IMG/VR virus record: IMGVR_UViG_3300017717_000114
Span: 1 to 20,989 of that record
Length of the DNA stretch: 20,989 bases
Direction: 5' to 3' (one strand)
Source: a virus
Position numbers and translations under genes: made by a program
Notes under the pieces: model-generated
Database searches by the model: none
Told to the model about the DNA's origin: nothing
What the model saw: the letters and a program-made list of their open reading frames with translations, nothing else
Shown: piece after piece, positions 162 to 16,852 of the stretch
Position numbering within the stretch: the first letter of the stretch is position 1
How the letters are laid out: each line of letters begins with the position of its first letter

Positions 162-477
162 CTTGTTTAAAGCCTCCGTTGCCGATTAGAAATGAAAGTA
201 AACCCCCACGTTCAGCCTCAAGTGTCACAGGGACATTGATAATAGCCAAAACAAAAGGAGCGATGATAACAGCGAATAGGATACATGCAGCGATTAATCT
301 GCGTACCCATACACCTGCGGTACGACTAGCAGCTCTGTCAGCAGAGTCGTCAGCCATACCTTGAAGGGCTAAGGAGTTTTCCAAAGCCCGCGCTTGTGCT
401 TCCGCTTGGGAAGCCACGAGGCGCATCACAAAACCTGTGACGCCACCTCCCAACATTGATAATAGTTCAATAGACAT
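73..477 (-). CDS. Small holin-like membrane protein
   Basis: A 134-residue protein encoded 6 bases after the scaffold gene. Residues about 58-82 (VRRLIAACILFAVIIAPFVLAI) form a clear membrane segment. A weak N-terminal hydrophobic stretch (LLSMLGGGVTGFVMRL) and a C-terminal one (MLALLSFYFGSSMVKR) could make two more, so the layout resembles three-segment phage holins. The ending FYFGSSMVKR is of a type I associate with small membrane proteins in structural clusters of marine phages. There is no catalytic motif. The leader is A/T-rich without a Shine-Dalgarno site. In T7 the capsid gene follows the scaffold directly, so a membrane protein here is a departure from that order. It may be a holin or a small virion membrane protein; the sequence does not decide. 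Confidence 0.7.
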   Translation of the reverse strand: MSIELLSMLGGGVTGFVMRLVASQAEAQARALENSLALQGMADDSADRAASRTAGVWVRRLIAACILFAVIIAPFVLAIINVPVTLEAERGGLLSFLIGNGGFKQVEGFVLLPEVRQGMLALLSFYFGSSMVKR

Positions 478-483
478 TATATT

Positions 484-1299
484 TTAAAAGATAGATGAGA
501 CAGACATACGTTGCTCGACCTGTGCGCGATAAGCAGGGTCAGTAGCATAACGAGCATCACGCATAGCAGCAGTGACTTGAGCGGCAGAACCGAAAGGCTG
601 AACACCTGATTCACCACTAGTAGAACCTTGTACGAGAGCAGGAGCAGCACCACCAGATGCTTGGAACTGAGCGTATAGACCTTTAACAGCTACGCGTGCC
701 TGTTCAACTGAACCTGACTCCACCATACTGTTATAAGCATCTAACTCACCATTATCTAGGTTCTCAGAAGCCCACTCGGACATAGCCTTGTAGTTTTCTT
801 CACCTCCAATAGTTCCTTGTATCTCAGATGCTTGACTAGCAGAACGAGCTTCTTGTCCAGCAACATAAGAGTCAACGAACTCACGAGGAACTCCAGCGTC
901 TTCTAGTGCTTTGTAGGAATCTTCGGATAACTCACCATTATTAGCAAAGTCGCTTTGAGCTGTCTCAATAGCAGAAGCCATAGGTGCTGGTGTATCCGTA
1001 GAAGCTTCTACCTTCTCAGCAGGCTCTTCCTTAGGTTCAGACATCTTCTTTTGAAGTTCTGAGTAAGCCTTAGCCATGTCCTCTGGAGATTCAAATTTTT
1101 CATCAAGCCATTCAGGACGCTCAGTAGCTTCCTCTTTGACTTCCTCGGTCGCTTCCTCTTGGGCTTTAGCCATAGGGTCAGCTTCGAGCGTTTGGTTACG
1201 CTTGTTTGCTGCTTCTTCTTGCATAGCAGCTTGTTGTTCGAGAGAGATATTTTCCTCTTCGTTAACTTCGTTTACTTGTACTTGCTGTAATTCAGCCAT
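484..1299 (-). CDS. Capsid assembly scaffolding protein (T7 gp9-like)
   Basis: A 271-residue, highly acidic, helix-rich protein directly after the portal gene, in the position of T7 gene 9. Residues 1-60 are rich in E and Q. Residues 61-85 (RPEWLDEKFESPEDMAKAY, then SELQKK) match the motif seen near the N-terminus of many T7-like scaffolds. The C-terminal part contains helical segments and ends in QVEQRMSVSSIF, and scaffold C-termini usually bind the capsid protein. The role is to guide procapsid assembly around the portal, after which scaffold leaves. The gene starts 2 bases after the portal stop and is one of the few here with a plausible Shine-Dalgarno site (GAGGA, about 9 bases upstream, inside the end of the portal gene). 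Confidence 0.88.
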   Translation of the reverse strand: MAELQQVQVNEVNEEENISLEQQAAMQEEAANKRNQTLEADPMAKAQEEATEEVKEEATERPEWLDEKFESPEDMAKAYSELQKKMSEPKEEPAEKVEASTDTPAPMASAIETAQSDFANNGELSEDSYKALEDAGVPREFVDSYVAGQEARSASQASEIQGTIGGEENYKAMSEWASENLDNGELDAYNSMVESGSVEQARVAVKGLYAQFQASGGAAPALVQGSTSGESGVQPFGSAAQVTAAMRDARYATDPAYRAQVEQRMSVSSIF

Positions 1300-1301
1300 G
1301 A

Positions 1302-2849
1302 TTATTGTTCCTCGCTAGGGGTTTGTTCTTGTTGTATTTTTGCTTGGTCGGACATTGCTTTGATACCACTAGGGCCAAGCTTTTCCGTCATTTGCATCAT
1401 TTGAGATTGTTGAGCTTCTTGAGCCATCTGCTCTTGAGTTTTAACCAACCCATCAGTCTTAATACCGAGGGAGGTTGCTCTGCGTTTAAAGTATTCAGCT
1501 ACGTTCACGAACTGGGCTACAGCCTCAGGGCCTACTACTTGGGATGCTCCAGCAAGGAACATATCTAGTTTCTGTAGGTCATGTCCGCGTCCTAAGGCTT
1601 CAACACCTGTAATGATAACAGGGTTAACAATGTCCTTAGGTAACTTAGGAAGTTTCTTCTTCTTACTCATCACCGACATTAGGCGATTAACAAGAGGCAT
1701 CTGGAGTTCAACGCTAAGGAGTGAGTAAAGACCACCGATAGCAGTCTCAAGCTCTTGACCGAGCATACGGATTTCCTCAGCAGTAACACGTTCAGCATTA
1801 CGTACAACACCAGAGGTGAGAAGGAAGGCGTGACCAAGACGCTCCTCAATCTTTACGATAGCTTCTTGTACGATACGGAAGTCATTAAACTTATTGAGCT
1901 GTAGTACAGATACGTCAGCAGCGTTACCTTGAGCGATAGCACCATTAGGACTCTCAGCGAGTGTCTTAGCGCGTGTCGTACCATTAGGGTTAACTAGGAA
2001 GAGAACCTTAGCAGCAGCAGCAGAGCCTTCCACGAGTGAACGCTGGAGCGACTCAAGTGACTGTAGGTCGCCTAGGTATTCCTCTGTGTATCCACGTCCG
2101 TAGTCTTCACCGTCAATACGGCTAAAGCGGAGTGGGATAAATGGGTTCTTATCAGAAGCAAACATACCCTCAGATGAAGGAATTACATTACCGTTAACTT
2201 CTTGCCATACCTTCCACTTGTCATCCTTACGGCAGACTGCTGTATAAAGATGTACTTCGTCTTCAGCACCTTCACCATCCTGTGCGCCTGCTAGTTCTTT
2301 CATCTCATCAGATAGAGACATAAACGAAAGTGTTTCTTTTGTAGCGATGTACAAAACATTACCCATAGGGTCACGTTCTACAACATAACGGTCAAGGTGG
2401 AACACACGCATACCACCCTCTTCAGGGAGATAAACAAGGGAATTACCAGTTACGATAAGATGCTTTAGAGCTTCATGTAGAGCTGTGCGATAAGTCTCAC
2501 GGCTGATTTCATCCATGACGGATTCCTCAACTTGCTGGAGAGCTGTTTCAATCTCAGTAACAAGTTCAGGTGGTGCGCCTTCTTTAGCTAATCCACTAGC
2601 GTCTACGTTAAGGCGAAAGAACGGAGCATTGGGAGGTAGGAGTGCTAACAATAATTTAGATGCGAGGTTATTTACTCCTCTTGCCCCAATGCCCTGAAAA
2701 GGTGTTTCTAGTCGGCTGTGTGCGCCAAAGCCCTCATCTGGCATGATGTAGGGTAGTGTGAGTTTAGAACACTTACGCGCTCGGTCTATGTATTGATGTC
2801 GCTTACCCTCCAGTTTGGAGTAGAGTGCTTGAGCAGTTAGTTTGTTCAT
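1302..2849 (-). CDS. Portal / head-tail connector protein (T7 gp8-like)
   Basis: A 515-residue protein (T7 gp8 is 536) forming the dodecameric portal through which DNA is packaged and to which the tail attaches. Clear family signatures are in the N-terminal third: the ARKCSKLTLPYIMPDEGF region, then TPFQGIGARGVNNLASKLLL and ALLPPNAPFFRL. The mid region has ALKHLIVTGNSLVYLPEEGG and the start of the clip/wing region (FHLDRYVVERDPMGNV). The C-terminal region contains RNAERVTAEEIRMLGQELE, typical of podoviral connectors, and a Q-rich tail (EAQQSQMMQMTEKLGP). The start lies after an A/T-rich leader without a Shine-Dalgarno site. The scaffold follows 2 bases downstream, so the two are almost certainly translated from one message. 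Confidence 0.96.
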   Translation of the reverse strand: MNKLTAQALYSKLEGKRHQYIDRARKCSKLTLPYIMPDEGFGAHSRLETPFQGIGARGVNNLASKLLLALLPPNAPFFRLNVDASGLAKEGAPPELVTEIETALQQVEESVMDEISRETYRTALHEALKHLIVTGNSLVYLPEEGGMRVFHLDRYVVERDPMGNVLYIATKETLSFMSLSDEMKELAGAQDGEGAEDEVHLYTAVCRKDDKWKVWQEVNGNVIPSSEGMFASDKNPFIPLRFSRIDGEDYGRGYTEEYLGDLQSLESLQRSLVEGSAAAAKVLFLVNPNGTTRAKTLAESPNGAIAQGNAADVSVLQLNKFNDFRIVQEAIVKIEERLGHAFLLTSGVVRNAERVTAEEIRMLGQELETAIGGLYSLLSVELQMPLVNRLMSVMSKKKKLPKLPKDIVNPVIITGVEALGRGHDLQKLDMFLAGASQVVGPEAVAQFVNVAEYFKRRATSLGIKTDGLVKTQEQMAQEAQQSQMMQMTEKLGPSGIKAMSDQAKIQQEQTPSEEQ

Positions 2850-2859
2850 ATATTTTCTG

Positions 2860-2961
2860 TTAATTAAAGTTAACCCAACCTACGGAGAAGTTGCCTTCTT
2901 GTAGCGAGGAATCTAACCGATTGAGTTTAAGGAACTCTCGGTAGGCGGGTTTAAATTTCAT
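2860..2961 (-). CDS. Small 33-residue protein upstream of portal
   Basis: A short ORF starting with ATG at 2961, inside the last codons of the preceding 68-residue gene (overlap 11 bases), and ending 10 bases before the portal start. The translation begins MKFKPAYREFLKLNRLD, continues with SSLQEG and ends FSVGWVNFN. It fills the otherwise empty gap before the portal exactly, and its start overlaps a stop codon as in translational coupling; both support a real gene. There is no membrane segment and no family I recognise. It could be a chance ORF in a short spacer. Confidence 0.5.
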   Translation of the reverse strand: MKFKPAYREFLKLNRLDSSLQEGNFSVGWVNFN

Positions 2962-3157
2962 CTTCCCATTGCTTAGGCTCATAAGAGTCTACAGCTACGA
3001 GAAGCTCTGAGGGGGTTAAGATACCAGTAGTCTTCCACACATAAGTGTCGCTATTGGTTCTGTGGATGTCATAATGAAAGAAACGAGCTTTTATATACGT
3101 TAGGGATGCGTTAGCTCTCTCTATCGCTTCTTCTCTAGTGTCATATTCAAGGTACAT
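2951..3157 (-). CDS. Hypothetical 68-residue protein
   Basis: A compact acidic protein with mixed helix and strand character. It begins MYLEYDTREEAIERANASLT and ends VDSYEPKQWEDEI. The pattern 'strand, REEA-type helix, strand, then WKTTGILTPSELLVAV' resembles small alpha/beta phage proteins of unknown role. It lies between the putative virion protease gene and the portal gene, with a 44-base A/C-rich leader (CTCAACCAAGATAACTAAC before ATG) and no Shine-Dalgarno site. It probably belongs to the structural transcript. No function is assigned. Confidence 0.75.
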   Translation of the reverse strand: MYLEYDTREEAIERANASLTYIKARFFHYDIHRTNSDTYVWKTTGILTPSELLVAVDSYEPKQWEDEI

Positions 3158-3201
3158 GTTAGTTATCTTGGTTGAGTTAGCCTACTTGTCTACAATAAAG
3201 T

Positions 3202-4458
3202 TTAATAAGTAGTGAATGAGGATAAGTCGCCTTCTGTGACTGTGTATCCTGTAGAGACACCTTGGGCTGTGTCTAGTGTACTAATCATTGCGTTAAGTTC
3301 AGGGACTAGTGCATTATAAGCTGGCCCTGATGTTCTAGTATGGAACGTAGATAAGAGCCAAAGCTCTGTACCAGCTACAGCAAACACAGGATTACCAGAG
3401 TCGCCTGATATAATACTCTCATGGAAAGCTAAACGGTCAGAGTTTTCTGGTTTGTTAAAGGTAGCTACAGGATTAGTATCAGAAGCTTCTTGGGTGTTAA
3501 GTAAATCTAGTACGATACCCTTCTCTTCAAAGTCGAAAGCTAATAAAGGCAAACGATATGCTGAAACAGAACCACTAGTAGATGAAGCAGGTAAATACGT
3601 AGTAAAGGCTGACGGAAATATCTTACAAGGTGTTATAGAGCTAGGAAGGTCGCTATCTAATAGAACCATCCAAGCGTCTGTACCTGTACCATCTGTAGAT
3701 ATACTTGAGGCTTGTACGACTGTACGTGTAATAACAGTATTATCTGAAGCTACGAAACGTAAAGTAGCCCCTGATTGTATAGGGTAGTGAGAAGCTAATA
3801 AAGCGTGACGAGCTGTAATAGCTGTACCAGCTCTTGTGTTAGCACCTATAGAGTTCCAAGGACTAGCACAGGTTAAAGCTTCAGCGTGTGTAGCTTGTAG
3901 GAAGAAGTTACTATTTCTGGTATATGAGCCTGAGGTATGATTCTGGCTAGTATATACAGACTGCTGTGTGCTGACATTAGCACCACTTAGAGCCGTGTCT
4001 ATAGTGTCTGTGAGTTCTTCACGTGCTGAACCAGCCACACCACCTGTAATGGTATCAATGGTTACCGCTCCTGATACCTGAAGAGATATATTAACAACCT
4101 GTGAGAGCTGGAAGGCACCCACCGCGGCTGTAACGGTTATATTAGCTGATGATGTTTCTTCAGGGACTACTAGGTAAACAATATTACCCAGAGTATCTAC
4201 GTTTATCTTCGTAGGATTATCCGAGGAATAAGTGAAGTTAATAATATCGTCAGTGGTATTATATAGAACTGTAGGTGATAAAGTGACCTGTTCTCCAGCA
4301 GAAGCTGTAACTGTACGAGTTACTTGCTTATCTTGGTCGGTCGTGGTTGTTACTGTATCAGCCGTTATGATTGTATCAGAGCGAAACTGCTCCATGTTGA
4401 ACCATACTTTATGAACACGCCCTTGGTTTACTTTTACACTTCCTATCTGTGTAGTCAT
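3202..4458 (-). CDS. Ig-like plus trypsin-like serine protease, probably virion-associated
   Basis: A 418-residue protein. Residues about 45-112 look like a bacterial Ig-like (BIG2-type) beta-sandwich, with VTASAGEQVTLSPTVLYN and later SANITVTAAV. Residues about 185-395 carry the three signatures of a chymotrypsin-fold (S1-like) peptidase in the right order: TARH with His218, TDAWMVLL with Asp261, and SGDSGNPVF with Ser354. Between them are beta-strand-like segments typical of the double barrel. There is no signal peptide, so it is not obviously secreted on its own. It follows a fibre-like gene with adjoining stop and start codons, in the structural block just before the portal, so virion attachment is the likely location. 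It could cleave host surface protein, process a phage protein or mediate autocleavage. The substrate is unknown, and this protein is absent from the T7 core set. Confidence 0.82.
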   Translation of the reverse strand: MTTQIGSVKVNQGRVHKVWFNMEQFRSDTIITADTVTTTTDQDKQVTRTVTASAGEQVTLSPTVLYNTTDDIINFTYSSDNPTKINVDTLGNIVYLVVPEETSSANITVTAAVGAFQLSQVVNISLQVSGAVTIDTITGGVAGSAREELTDTIDTALSGANVSTQQSVYTSQNHTSGSYTRNSNFFLQATHAEALTCASPWNSIGANTRAGTAITARHALLASHYPIQSGATLRFVASDNTVITRTVVQASSISTDGTGTDAWMVLLDSDLPSSITPCKIFPSAFTTYLPASSTSGSVSAYRLPLLAFDFEEKGIVLDLLNTQEASDTNPVATFNKPENSDRLAFHESIISGDSGNPVFAVAGTELWLLSTFHTRTSGPAYNALVPELNAMISTLDTAQGVSTGYTVTEGDLSSFTTY

Positions 4459-5292
4459 TTAAGATATTTTTGTTACTTGTAATTTGGAATTTTCGAAACC
4501 GTAACCAGCAGTTCCAGTTACTACAAAGGATAAGCTTAGTGGATAACTAACAGGGAAGTTAGTGATTTCTGAACGTGTTATAGTGATAAATGTTTTAACA
4601 CTTCTCATCGTATAAGTTAAACCAGAGCTTGAACTAAGAGCTACTAGGGCCTGAGCTGGTGCGCTTGGATAAGGGAAGGTGCTTCTTATACCGCTAAAGC
4701 CTCCTAATGCCTGCGATGCGGTTGAGGAAGCTGCATTATTAAAGTCACCTGAAGCTAAATCAACGCTATCGTTACCAAAGGTAAGAGGGAGTGCTGGAAA
4801 TCCAAACCCTAAATTACCTATATCAGCTGTTACGTCTACAACTGCTTTTAGTGTTGTGGCTGGAATTGACCCCGCTGCATTAATATCACGAATAGCCATA
4901 AAACAGTCCACCTCGAATACTGCTGATTCTCCTACCGCTACTTCCGATAAGTCAAACTCTATAGTATCACTACTGAATGCTGTTCCTGAGGTTGAAGCCT
5001 CCGCGCCTGCTGTAGCGTTAATAGTAGTTGGGGTGCTATTCTGTGGGCTTACAACTTCGTAGGCACTGGCCGAAGTGAATCGGATAATATCTTTAGTGTC
5101 TGTGTTAACCATGATTGAACCCACGGTAGCATCTGAAACAGCGTCAATCTCTGCTGTAGTGCCTGAGGGTGGGATGAAACTACCGAAGGAGACTGTATCT
5201 GTGGCTCCGAGTCCTGCGTTAGTACGGATAGCAGCTTTATCTGCTGATTTAAGTAGACTGTCTACGTCTGAAGTTACTGTTACGTTTGGCAT
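4459..5292 (-). CDS. Fibre-like virion protein
   Basis: A 277-residue, low-charge, Ser/Thr/Ala/Gly-rich beta protein. The N-terminus (SLLKSADKAAIRTNAGLG followed by ATDTVSFGSF) is the recurring motif found in tail fibres and their shaft repeats. Residues about 57-83 (GSIMVNTDTKDIIRFTSASA and on) match another phage fibre/spike motif that reads as a display strand pair. The rest is beta-rich with aromatic-poor, Ser-rich loops, as expected of a trimeric fibre head. It is followed with no gap by the protease gene, and the pair may form one appendage. In T7 the fibre (gp17) lies after the tail genes, so its place ahead of the portal is unusual. It might instead be a head decoration protein. Confidence 0.6.
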   Translation of the reverse strand: MPNVTVTSDVDSLLKSADKAAIRTNAGLGATDTVSFGSFIPPSGTTAEIDAVSDATVGSIMVNTDTKDIIRFTSASAYEVVSPQNSTPTTINATAGAEASTSGTAFSSDTIEFDLSEVAVGESAVFEVDCFMAIRDINAAGSIPATTLKAVVDVTADIGNLGFGFPALPLTFGNDSVDLASGDFNNAASSTASQALGGFSGIRSTFPYPSAPAQALVALSSSSGLTYTMRSVKTFITITRSEITNFPVSYPLSLSFVVTGTAGYGFENSKLQVTKIS

Positions 5293-5307
5293 AATTCTTT
5301 AGTTGTT

Positions 5308-5592
5308 TTAAGGTTGGATATAAAGTGAAGAACCGTCTGGCTGGAAATAACTAGAGCCATCGGATGCTATATATGTAAGAACAGAACCCGCAATAATAGC
5401 CTTAGTTCTGTCGATGGTTACTGTAACGCCATCTATAGTGATAGTACGGACGTTAGGGTAAGGAGTGTGGTCTATGGTAATGGTATCACCATCTAGGGTC
5501 ATGGTACGAACTCCCTCAAACGCATCCCTATTAATGGTATATGTTTCGGTGTCGCCATTTGCTTGGGTGATTGAGAGAGTCGTATCTGCCAT
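5308..5592 (-). CDS. Beta-repeat protein, 94 residues
   Basis: A small protein with internal repeats. VRTMTLDGDTITID (residues 28-41) is repeated as VRTITIDGVTVTID (48-61) with a 20-residue period, and the strand before it (TETYTINRDAFEG) looks like a degenerate third copy. The C-terminus holds two copies of a DGSS plus aromatic/QP motif (DGSSYFQP and DGSSLYIQP). The pattern predicts a small beta-solenoid or beta-sandwich like those in phage fibres and spikes. The gene sits just ahead of the fibre-like gene. It may be a fibre tip, adaptor or head decoration protein. No enzyme motif is seen. Confidence 0.68.
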   Translation of the reverse strand: MADTTLSITQANGDTETYTINRDAFEGVRTMTLDGDTITIDHTPYPNVRTITIDGVTVTIDRTKAIIAGSVLTYIASDGSSYFQPDGSSLYIQP

Positions 5593-5594
5593 GA

Positions 5595-5795
5595 TTAGTA
5601 AGGTAGGTTAGAACCTGTTCCTTGACTGCCTGTATTAACAGAAGGTCTACGGATGGTTAATGAAGAAGTGCCTGTCTTTTTAGACGCGCCCTTTGGAGTA
5701 CGTTTAGTTGCTAACTTCTGAGCTACCTTTGTAGGAGCTGGAGGAGGAGCGGGTGGTGGTACTGGGTCTGGTACTTTAGGAGATGACATGCACAT
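5595..5795 (-). CDS. Proline-rich, gp7.3-like tail assembly protein
   Basis: A 66-residue protein with a proline-rich N-terminus (SSPKVPDPVPPPAPPPAPTK), a basic middle and a C-terminus TSSLTIRRPSVNTGSQGTG. Short proteins of this design, with a Pro-rich start and a 'SLxIxR...G' end, sit before the portal in many T7-like phages. The ending resembles that of T7 gp7.3, a small virion/tail protein made just ahead of gp8, although here fibre-like and protease genes come between. Two ATGs two codons apart are possible starts (5795 and 5789). The second gives MSSPKVP, the usual form of this family, and may be the real one. The family call is by pattern memory, not alignment. Confidence 0.62.
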   Translation of the reverse strand: MCMSSPKVPDPVPPPAPPPAPTKVAQKLATKRTPKGASKKTGTSSLTIRRPSVNTGSQGTGSNLPY

Positions 5796-5799
5796 AATA

Positions 5800-6003
5800 T
5801 TATTCTTTGGTTAAGATGTTTTCGTTTTGAATTTGATAGGTGTGTCTGAGGAAGTTAACCACAGAGCGTTGACCATAATGGAAGTCCAGCTCTCTTACAC
5901 CCTTCTCAGGGTTGAAGTCTTGTGAGGGGTAAACCTCTTCAAGAGCCTTAATAAGAGCGTCTGAGACGGTCGGGAATTGCGTAAAACTGCCTGTATTATT
6001 CAT
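5800..6003 (-). CDS. Conserved small phage protein, 67 residues
   Basis: The sequence has the layout 'LIKALEEVYPSQDFNPEKG, then VRELDFHYGQRSVVNFLRH', ending in QIQNENILTKE. This 'helix, ExxFP-like turn, short linker, xELxxxxGQRSVVxxL helix' pattern is one I associate with short proteins in the middle region of marine T7-like phages. The function is unknown. It has one of the clearer Shine-Dalgarno sites in the window (GAAAGGA about 6 bases before the ATG), unlike most genes here. It lies 13 bases after the diphosphohydrolase-like gene and 4 bases before the proline-rich gene. Confidence 0.75.
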   Translation of the reverse strand: MNNTGSFTQFPTVSDALIKALEEVYPSQDFNPEKGVRELDFHYGQRSVVNFLRHTYQIQNENILTKE

Positions 6004-6016
6004 TACTGTCCTTTCC

Positions 6017-6445
6017 TTAGGGGTTAATATCGTTAAGTTCGTCTGGAAGTTTACCAGAATCTATCCATTCTTTGGTCTGAACCATGCACATAGCGTTCCA
6101 CACAATAGCTCCACCGTGGTCTTCGGAGGTGTCTCCCTCCATATATTGCCAAAGGTGGCGATAGAGTGAGTCTACGTAGCGACTTAGGGGAATACCCTTA
6201 TGCCAGTTGTCTCTACCATATTTAGTAGCTCCGTCCTCAAACCGCTTAGAAACAGCCCTGAGAGCTGCAATAGGGATAAGGCTTGGCATACCTTTACCTT
6301 CTGACGCGTCTCTAACTGCTCCTGTGTTAAACTCTGAGCGTGCGCCTGAGTCGGGGAGTACGGATTCTACTAGTGCTTTTGTCTGTGTTTTGTATTGCAT
6401 ATTTGCTTTTTCGATGTCGTTGATTAATTTATCTATTTGATTCAT
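6017..6445 (-). CDS. dATP/dGTP diphosphohydrolase-like (MazG-related fold)
   Basis: A 142-residue protein with the core SGARSEFNTGAVRDASEGKG (residues 33-52), RFEDGATKYGRDNWHKG (68-84), SLYRHLWQYMEG (93-104), SEDHGGAIVWNA (107-118). These match the phage domain called dATP/dGTP diphosphohydrolase N-terminal, in which E/D and K/H residues of a helical bundle bind metal and nucleotide. Such enzymes hydrolyse dNTPs to dNMP and pyrophosphate. In 2-aminoadenine phages a relative (MazZ) works with PurZ, but the domain is widespread in phages that lack that pathway and no purZ is present in this window. A role in adjusting nucleotide pools for replication fits its place after the exonuclease gene. 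The substrate here is not proven. Confidence 0.82.
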   Translation of the reverse strand: MNQIDKLINDIEKANMQYKTQTKALVESVLPDSGARSEFNTGAVRDASEGKGMPSLIPIAALRAVSKRFEDGATKYGRDNWHKGIPLSRYVDSLYRHLWQYMEGDTSEDHGGAIVWNAMCMVQTKEWIDSGKLPDELNDINP

Positions 6446-6454
6446 GTGTTTACT

Positions 6455-7240
6455 TTAACATTGGAAAGGAACCTGTGGGCTTTCAGCCTTAGCGTTAACC
6501 TTAGGCTCCCATAGTGTTACCTCGTGGGTTTCACGGTCGTATTCACCAGCTCGAAGGATACGTGCAAGACGTGCATTCATAAGCGCATCTTCTGCTGTCT
6601 GCCCTTTAGACTCGTAGGCTGCTACAACGGATTCCCAGTAGGCTCCGTGTTTATGTAACCACTTCTCAGCCGTACGGATACCGAAGCCCTTACATCCAGC
6701 AAAGCCGTCAGTCATGTCACCCATGAGTGATTGAACAAGGTGGAAGTAATTAGCCTCAGCCACAGTGATAGTACGGAGAACATCTTTAAGATGATTATAC
6801 CACATGATGGGGAGAGTTCCGAAGTCCTTGTCACCTGATACGGCCACACGGTTCTCAGGGTCTTCTGTACATATGATACCTATAGCGTCATCCGCTTCAA
6901 TGTTCTCGTAGATTGTTGAGTTGTATTCAGCCATCATCCATTCTTTAAGCTCACCGATACCGAGAGGCTTGCGCTTGTCTTTACGGTTCTGCTTATAGTC
7001 TGACCACATCTTGTGACGAAACGTAGTACGAGGAGAGAACACCACTAGGATGTCCTTACTCTGTAGGCGTTTCTGAATGGCTAAGAGTTGACGGTCAGCG
7101 TCTGCCTTGGCTTCTGACATGTTGGTCTGGAGTGTCCATATGTCATCGTCCCACCGCATCTCTTGTTGAGCAGCACAAGCTGCCTTGTATAATATCATAT
7201 CACCATCAATGATGATTTGTTTGTTTTTAGTTTCTTTCAT
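6455..7240 (-). CDS. 5'-3' exonuclease (FEN family, T7 gp6-like)
   Basis: A 261-residue flap-type nuclease (T7 gp6 is 300). Metal-binding acidic residues occur in the family order: IIIDGDMILY (Asp12, Asp14), ENIEADDAIG (Glu115, Asp117, Asp118), VSGDKDFGTL (Asp137, Asp139) and MGDMTDGFAG (Asp175, Asp178). The helical-arch region has RHKMWSDYKQNRKDKRKPLG, and GCKGFGIRTAEKWL (182-195) is the helix-3-turn-helix that grips the DNA. In T7 this enzyme degrades host DNA, removes RNA primers and trims ends for recombination. It lies right after the DNA polymerase gene as in T7. No Shine-Dalgarno site is seen. Confidence 0.93.
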   Translation of the reverse strand: MKETKNKQIIIDGDMILYKAACAAQQEMRWDDDIWTLQTNMSEAKADADRQLLAIQKRLQSKDILVVFSPRTTFRHKMWSDYKQNRKDKRKPLGIGELKEWMMAEYNSTIYENIEADDAIGIICTEDPENRVAVSGDKDFGTLPIMWYNHLKDVLRTITVAEANYFHLVQSLMGDMTDGFAGCKGFGIRTAEKWLHKHGAYWESVVAAYESKGQTAEDALMNARLARILRAGEYDRETHEVTLWEPKVNAKAESPQVPFQC

Positions 7241-16375: not shown

Positions 16376-16852
16376 TTAATAGTGGCGGTATGCTAGTACA
16401 GCTATAAGAGCAAGCAAGCCTAAAAGTAATACATAGGTGCTAGGCTCAGGGATAACAGAAACAACGCGCAATGTCAGGCTTCCACCTTCTAGTGTCTTAA
16501 TGACTGCAACTTGGTATTCCTTTGATGCGTTGTGTCGTGCTGTAGCTGTAACAATTAAGATGTCATCGTGTGTGATGTGGCTAGTGTCTGTAAGTGGAAG
16601 CTCCCATGGATAAATTACTTTATTGTCAAAGCTCCAATCCATAAGGGAAAGGCTTTGGAACTCTACTCGGTCGCCCATGCCTGCAATCTTGAAGAACTCT
16701 CCATCAGTCATGCGAACCTTTGCGCTCCCGTTCGAAAACTTAACGCTGGGTTCATTAGCTAGTATGCCAGTATTAATGCTTGTGATGTTAACACCTGCGA
16801 AGGTGGACGTGCTTAATGATAGTAAAGCGAGTGTGATTAGTTTTAATTTCAT
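16376..16852 (-). CDS. Phage-encoded PEP-CTERM sorting-signal protein
   Basis: A 158-residue exported protein. Residues 1-19 (MKLKLITLALLSLSTSTFA) form a textbook signal peptide with cleavage after FA. The C-terminus has VIPEPSTY (PEP at 135-137), a hydrophobic segment (about 141-154) and a short basic end (YRHY). This is the tripartite PEP-CTERM anchor processed by an exosortase (EpsH/XrtA family) in Gram-negative bacteria that make exopolysaccharide. The middle (20-130) is a beta-rich domain with no known motif. The host would export, cleave and perhaps attach the protein at the surface or in the matrix. It lies in the early array, not among virion genes, so it is probably cargo altering the host surface, for example against superinfection. 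The call rests on motif recognition. Confidence 0.85.
   Translation of the reverse strand: MKLKLITLALLSLSTSTFAGVNITSINTGILANEPSVKFSNGSAKVRMTDGEFFKIAGMGDRVEFQSLSLMDWSFDNKVIYPWELPLTDTSHITHDDILIVTATARHNASKEYQVAVIKTLEGGSLTLRVVSVIPEPSTYVLLLGLLALIAVLAYRHY

Follow-up and report, generated by a model that had tools for sequence, protein, structure and literature searches.

The stretch of DNA analysed here, referred to in its full length as the window, covers positions 1 to 20,989 of the IMG/VR virus record IMGVR_UViG_3300017717_000114. A gene for a predicted trypsin-fold serine protease lies on its minus strand between a fibre-like gene and the gene for a T7-type portal (Table 1). As an earlier note on this DNA had reported, the open reading frame at 3202–4458 carries His218, Asp261 and Ser354 in its translation; it directly follows the fibre-like gene, the fibre stop abutting the protease ATG in the junction TAAATG, and stands ahead of the portal gene, from which a 68-aa ORF separates it.

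The window phage is a marine, T7-like phage with an integrase: it encodes a single-subunit RNA polymerase, a T7 primase-helicase, endonuclease I, polymerase A, an exonuclease and a tyrosine integrase. RNA polymerase, primase-helicase and endonuclease I, together with the T7-type portal and a capsid-assembly protein, are the genes by which it is counted among the Autographiviridae. The nearest deposited record, AP013544 (genus Ayaqvirus), also bears an integrase; its portal is 69.5% and its RNA polymerase 40.8% identical to those of the window phage. At 16376–16852 on the minus strand, near the integrase gene, we observed a reading frame for a 158-aa protein that begins like a signal peptide and ends in a PEP-CTERM tail (PF07589, 21.0 bits against a cut-off of 20.7); no match to this protein was found in phage records. 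The earlier note had attributed PEP-CTERM surface proteins to the host, whereas this one is encoded by the phage itself; as a phage-encoded exosortase substrate, it could represent lysogenic conversion of the cell surface.

Table 1. Features of the protease locus, in window coordinates
Feature	Position	Strand	Basis or remark
T7-type portal (head-tail connector)	1302..2849	-	PF12236 E 1.1e-90; phrog_449 E 3.5e-181; next large gene downstream of the protease gene
Protease gene, 418 aa, ATG start	3202..4458	-	ORF; AlphaFold2 model; fold searches; homologues
Protease domain, residues 135-418	3205..4056	-	limits from family HMM (hmmsearch)
Ser354 codon, putative nucleophile in GDSGNP	3397..3399	-	invariant, 31/31
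Glu347 codon, seven residues before Ser354	3418..3420	-	acidic in 29/31 homologues; near predicted S1 pocket base
Asp261 codon (chymotrypsin Asp102)	3676..3678	-	invariant; within model strand 258-267
His224 codon, probable catalytic His (chymotrypsin His57)	3787..3789	-	invariant; profile alignment; after strand 218-222
His218 codon, choice of the earlier note	3805..3807	-	invariant; at H of PNHVL in chymotrypsinogen C
Ig/BIG2-like beta-sandwich, residues ~30-130	4069..4371	-	model strands 18-140; Foldseek to BIG2-domain phage proteins
Fibre-like partner gene, 277 aa	4459..5292	-	N-terminal adaptor common to other protease-linked fibres; variable C-terminus

Fold and domain architecture

An AlphaFold2 model of the window protein, built from a 30-sequence alignment, reached a mean pLDDT of 88.0 and a pTM of 0.84; an earlier model from seven rows was poor (pLDDT 41.8) and was left out of the fold searches. 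The best PDB match in Foldseek is porcine trypsin (E 4e-6), and all 17 PDB chains at E <= 0.001 have the trypsin/chymotrypsin fold, among them Vibrio VesB, norovirus proteases and HGF-beta, the last of which we take to be a non-catalytic homologue. VIA-align superposed model residues ~156–410 on chymotrypsin (Z 16.7, rmsd 3.4, 189 aligned) and on Staphylococcus Esp/V8 (Z ~16, from 15.8 upward, rmsd 2.8–3.0). The predicted structure thus makes the chymotrypsin fold (double beta-barrel, PA clan) a firm assignment, in keeping with the trypsin-fold peptidase proposed in the earlier note.

Sequence searches with the window protein alone or with the seven-row set gave no useful match in Pfam, PHROGs or the PDB, and the 30-row set gave nothing relevant in NCBIfam. 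The profile of peptidase family S1 (PF00089) did not match the window protein, its best hit in the family being E 0.0012 in one of 30 members; because the PF00089 cut-off was not reached, we place the protein in the PA clan and not in family S1. A prohead protease was ruled out, as the model shows a chymotrypsin-like fold and the gene adjoins the fibre gene instead of lying between portal and capsid genes.

From its N-terminus, the protein consists of a short segment, the Ig/BIG2-like domain, the chymotrypsin-fold domain and a conserved C-terminal tail ending in DLSSFTTY. The Ig-like front matches BIG2-domain phage proteins in Foldseek (E ~5e-3), and Pfam Big_2 (PF02368) scores above its gathering threshold in four of ten homologues scanned, including L126 (two copies), L152 and L148; in the window protein itself, the Pfam scan found no match to Big_2. 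An Ig/BIG2-like domain ahead of the protease domain, as the earlier note had it, is confirmed at the level of the model. Two further elements are almost invariant in homologues: SPWNS (residues 199–203), ahead of the His motif, and, at the C-terminus, the tail DLSxxxxY (residues 411–418).

Catalytic residues and the family

The motifs TARH, TDAW and GDSG start at residues 215, 260 and 352. Asp261 and Ser354 of the triad proposed earlier hold, but His218 does not. In the profile alignment, His224 falls on His57 (the H of TAAH in chymotrypsinogen C), His218 being six residues earlier: the His224 region of the window protein, AGTAITARHALLASH, pairs with chymotrypsinogen GGTLITPNHVLTAAH, and the family profile qrAGtlitpRHvllaaH pairs with TCGGTLITPNHVLTAAH of chymotrypsinogen C, in an alignment that is weak over the whole sequence (E 1.1) and covers the diagnostic motif. 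DSSP of the model shows a strand (218–222) directly before His224; in trypsin, too, a strand comes just before the catalytic His. A forced hhalign path with HtrA placed the His218 region near the HtrA His. The HtrA alignments are weak (Prob 1.3, E 0.039, aligned around the Ser motif only), and as the forced path favours the His218 region, the assignment rests on DSSP and on the chymotrypsinogen C alignment; conservation alone cannot choose between two invariant residues. His224, and not His218, is with near certainty the catalytic residue.

The family set comprised 57 matches in 50 loci, the window included, and collapsing contig duplicates left 32 distinct domains, with pairwise identities from 22.5 to 94.2% (median 36.6%). 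This virome search, which the earlier note had proposed, found the triad kept throughout: His218, His224 and Asp261 are present in 32/32 and Asp353 and Ser354 in 31/31, and all five belong to the mere 8 strictly invariant columns among 245 well covered. Since 32 distinct domains keep the motifs, they are not there by chance. Gly352 and Gly355 are each present in 30/31; because L019 has YDSG and L137 has GDSS in place of GDSG, the oxyanion region is not uniform. Two outcomes had been named beforehand as speaking against a protease, triad residues far apart in the model and homologues without the triad, and neither was observed. Invariance of His, Asp and Ser down to 22.5% identity argues for selection for catalysis and for a live enzyme; as judged by sequence, the window protein is likely to be active as a serine protease.

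With chymotrypsin/trypsin, Esp and V8, the window protein has in common the fold, the His-Asp-Ser order, GDSG with Asp before Ser, and the GTAIT-RH-x5-H motif. Animal S1 enzymes carry a Cys next to the catalytic His, which forms the 42–58 disulfide. The window protein, with only two Cys (197 and 278), has Tyr225 beside His224, and differs from S1 enzymes further in its Ig/BIG2 front, its DLS-Y tail and its phage fibre setting. Our guess is that Glu347 may line the S1 pocket and confer a preference for basic P1 residues.

Most homologues came from IMG/VR scans, with two more retrieved from portal-related contigs by HMM. Scans with a single protein gave little: the L004 query found no relative and the L019 query itself alone. 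Among 50,697 phage records, tblastn found a homologue in one, UOF78081.1 of phage ct3Et533 (MW202510, Manatee Spring), a hypothetical protein with all triad residues encoded directly after a gene annotated as rhamnogalacturonan lyase; it is 28% identical to the window protein over 63% of the query and has a different N-terminus. Plasmid records gave no match to the protease, and one of 386 cyanobacterial genomes holds a homologue, on an Anabaena lutea contig. The uncharacterised A0A6J7XEP5 of an uncultured Caudovirales phage (Foldseek E 2.4e-20, 442 columns, 20% identity to the window model) is presumably a member as well. Carriers include phages with T7-type PF12236 portals (the window and L004) and a Mu-type portal (L014, PF06074 E 5e-106); Phage_cap_E capsids occur in L012 and, below the gathering score, in L014, where the cassette runs opposite to the adjoining head genes, as an insert would.

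In the open-licence literature searched, we found no protease of the trypsin fold that forms a pair with a phage fibre. A review treats peptidases as peptidoglycan enzymes (PMC6116005) and a jumbo-phage survey lists maturation peptidases of other folds (PMC7824862); trypsin-like genes are mentioned for a Rhizobium/Sinorhizobium phage cluster (PMC10783043) and appear as a Pfam entry in a staphylococcal phage gene list (PMC6507118). A new chymotrypsin-fold protein family in a new fibre-linked setting is, in our assessment, real and well supported.

Pairing with fibre genes

The locus contains a gene upstream of the protease in 30 of the 32 members, and in 24 of these (23 by script, plus L133 from manual reading of the ORF list) the protease starts −4 to +5 nt from the stop of that gene, which is usually fibre-like; the start was taken as the nearest of the first ATG/GTG candidates, a choice that favours small gaps. 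The gaps are larger in the other six (L134, L136, L137, L138, L141 and L149), and in L138 the upstream gene is not fibre-like. In L134 (4150–4290), L136 (7925–8040) and L141 (5930–6010) the end of the fibre-like gene reads CTT-TAA-C, CTT-TAG-C or CTT-TGA-C; across this stop the protease frame stays open in +1, and two of the three have no ATG nearby. Such ends resemble the prfB +1 frameshift site, and a +1 frameshift could yield a fibre-protease fusion at these loci.

Within the group to which the window belongs, the partner fibres combine a common N-terminal adaptor with different C-termini, in which we saw no obvious common site; as the sole query, the adaptor found nothing in phage records. 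Three contigs carry several fibre-protease pairs in a row: L126, L127 (two pairs) and L143 (two). The L126 array (172–7184) reads protease, fibre, protease, fibre, protease, fibre; of its proteases, the second and the third share 70% identity and the first has only 29% identity to these two, and the array closes with a fourth fibre, which is 66% identical to the second one and is not followed by a protease. Such an array may stem from repeated duplication or may hold alternative fibres in store.

The main alternative to a protease acting on the host, already raised in the earlier note as processing of the fibre, is a fibre maturase or chaperone, which would trim or lock the partner fibre (or itself) inside the infected cell and be dispensable on the particle. 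Fibre helper genes such as that of T4 gp38 lie directly behind the fibre gene, as the protease gene does. One paper describes gp38 as a chaperone of gp37 (PMC6957217). Moreover, the part common to partner fibres is the adaptor, which nearly always accompanies the protease, and tandem arrays give each protease an upstream partner of its own. Against this, the fourth L126 fibre does without a protease despite its similarity to the second, the partner C-termini lack an obvious common site, most close relatives have no protease, and an Ig/BIG2 domain and signal-peptide variants are ill-suited to a cytoplasmic helper. No match to known tail-fibre assembly families (DUF4376, Tfa and the like) was found in Pfam, PHROGs or NCBIfam. 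On balance, we regard a maturase as unlikely, at somewhat better than one chance in five.

Like T-even gp38, the window protein would be a second protein working with the fibre, from which it differs by its protease fold and conserved triad. The gp38 of phage PP01 is described as a fibre-tip protein that binds the receptor (PMC12892980), and the protease could likewise be a receptor-binding tip that keeps a protease scaffold, with catalysis secondary or absent. That a second surface-type protein gene follows the fibre gene would fit, as would the shortness of protease-linked fibres in the window's phage group (277 and 330 aa for the complete ones, 218 aa for a partial one), but full His/Asp/Ser conservation across so divergent a family is unexpected of a mere scaffold; we consider such a tip less probable still than a maturase.

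Signal-peptide-like starts were flagged on three of the 25 scored proteases (L133, L137 and L139), in each case together with one on the upstream gene (3/3); the other 22, the window's included, have none, and in L011 the fibre alone was flagged. Starts of this kind on both genes (L133:6389-8915, L137:5197-8660, L139:2861-5013) are odd for phage structural genes. In the same three loci, the protease N-terminus carries a DPDxDGIxNLxEYALD motif, which is known from Verrucomicrobiota. Paired signal-like starts, the integrase of the window phage and the Anabaena lutea copy would all suit a secreted or lysogenic-conversion pair that leaves the infected cell or lysogen and acts outside it, perhaps on rival phages or in the acquisition of nutrients. 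The window protein and most members carry no signal peptide, however, and the genes sit within structural gene blocks, making export for such purposes the most improbable of the alternatives.

The fibre-to-portal slot and the proposed function

As the earlier note had anticipated, such a protease is rare in T7-like phages: besides the single deposited record, it is present in two of 80 portal loci, these being the best 80 of 587 matching contigs; in 54 of the 80 the sequence ahead of the portal is 1.5 kb or longer. An HMM of the adaptor, built from 13 partner fibres, matched three of the same best 80 of 587: both protease loci and, weakly, L018. Eight ORFs picked by hand from this portal-related set showed what else lies in or near the slot: a SASA carbohydrate esterase (L055), a fibre with a GDSL hydrolase (L018), a pectate-lyase-like protein, or spike (L076), a sulfotransferase (L081:523-1323) and LRR and DUF4376 proteins (L087:1956-3919), the L021 ORF matching nothing. 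Because of the sulfotransferase and the LRR and DUF4376 proteins, slot occupants are not strictly hydrolases; its alternation with enzymes that act on surface polymers is nevertheless the strongest reason to place the function of the protease at the cell surface.

We propose that the window gene encodes an active chymotrypsin-fold serine endoprotease with the triad His224-Asp261-Ser354 and an Ig/BIG2-like domain, which would be synthesised alongside the tail-fibre protein that the preceding gene encodes, and would sit on that fibre in the virion. As the phage adsorbs, the protease would cut host-cell or surrounding proteins, be it a receptor, a surface layer or matrix, on the model of the glycan depolymerases that other fibres carry. 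The observed grounds are the fold, a triad conserved across the family, coupling to a fibre gene, the tandem pairs and the replacement by other enzymes at the slot; from these we infer catalysis, fibre attachment, presence in the virion and a protein substrate. The Ig/BIG2 front suggests a surface role as well, as does the recurrence of a signal-like start on the upstream gene wherever the protease has one. Several observations count against the proposal: the signal-like starts in L133, L137 and L139 are hard to reconcile with cytoplasmic virion assembly and point outside the producing cell; the strong link between adaptor and protease fits fibre processing equally well; GDSG is altered in L019 and L137; six members have larger gaps, and the upstream gene of L138 is not fibre-like; the HtrA alignments are weak; and some occupants of the slot are no hydrolases. 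We put the probability that the protease is borne on the fibre of the virion and digests surface or matrix protein as the phage adsorbs at about 0.5.

Phage fibre enzymes are known mostly as sugar cutters. Like virion depolymerases on tailspikes and fibres, the protease is encoded in the fibre/tailspike block, and in relatives the same slot holds an esterase, a GDSL hydrolase or a pectate-lyase-like protein; it would differ from virion depolymerases in cutting protein. One review cites the poly-gamma-glutamate peptidase of phage PhiNIT1 as its example of a virion depolymerase that acts on a polypeptide (PMC5380687).

More tentatively, and with the odds somewhat against it, the pair may be a mobile cassette in which an adaptor fibre and its own trypsin-fold protease are plugged, sometimes in tandem, into the fibre slots of unrelated phages (T7-like, Mu-like and others), and would then constitute a kind of phage 'protein depolymerase' that has not been described before. 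If so, fibre type and cutting specificity would be exchanged together, each fibre bringing its own cutter for a protein coat. Near absence from deposited phage records means that work on cultured phages would have missed the family. Our results suggest that some phages may cut proteins en route to the host cell; a recurrent fibre-linked endoprotease, if true, would mean that surface or biofilm-matrix proteins can be a barrier that phages digest.
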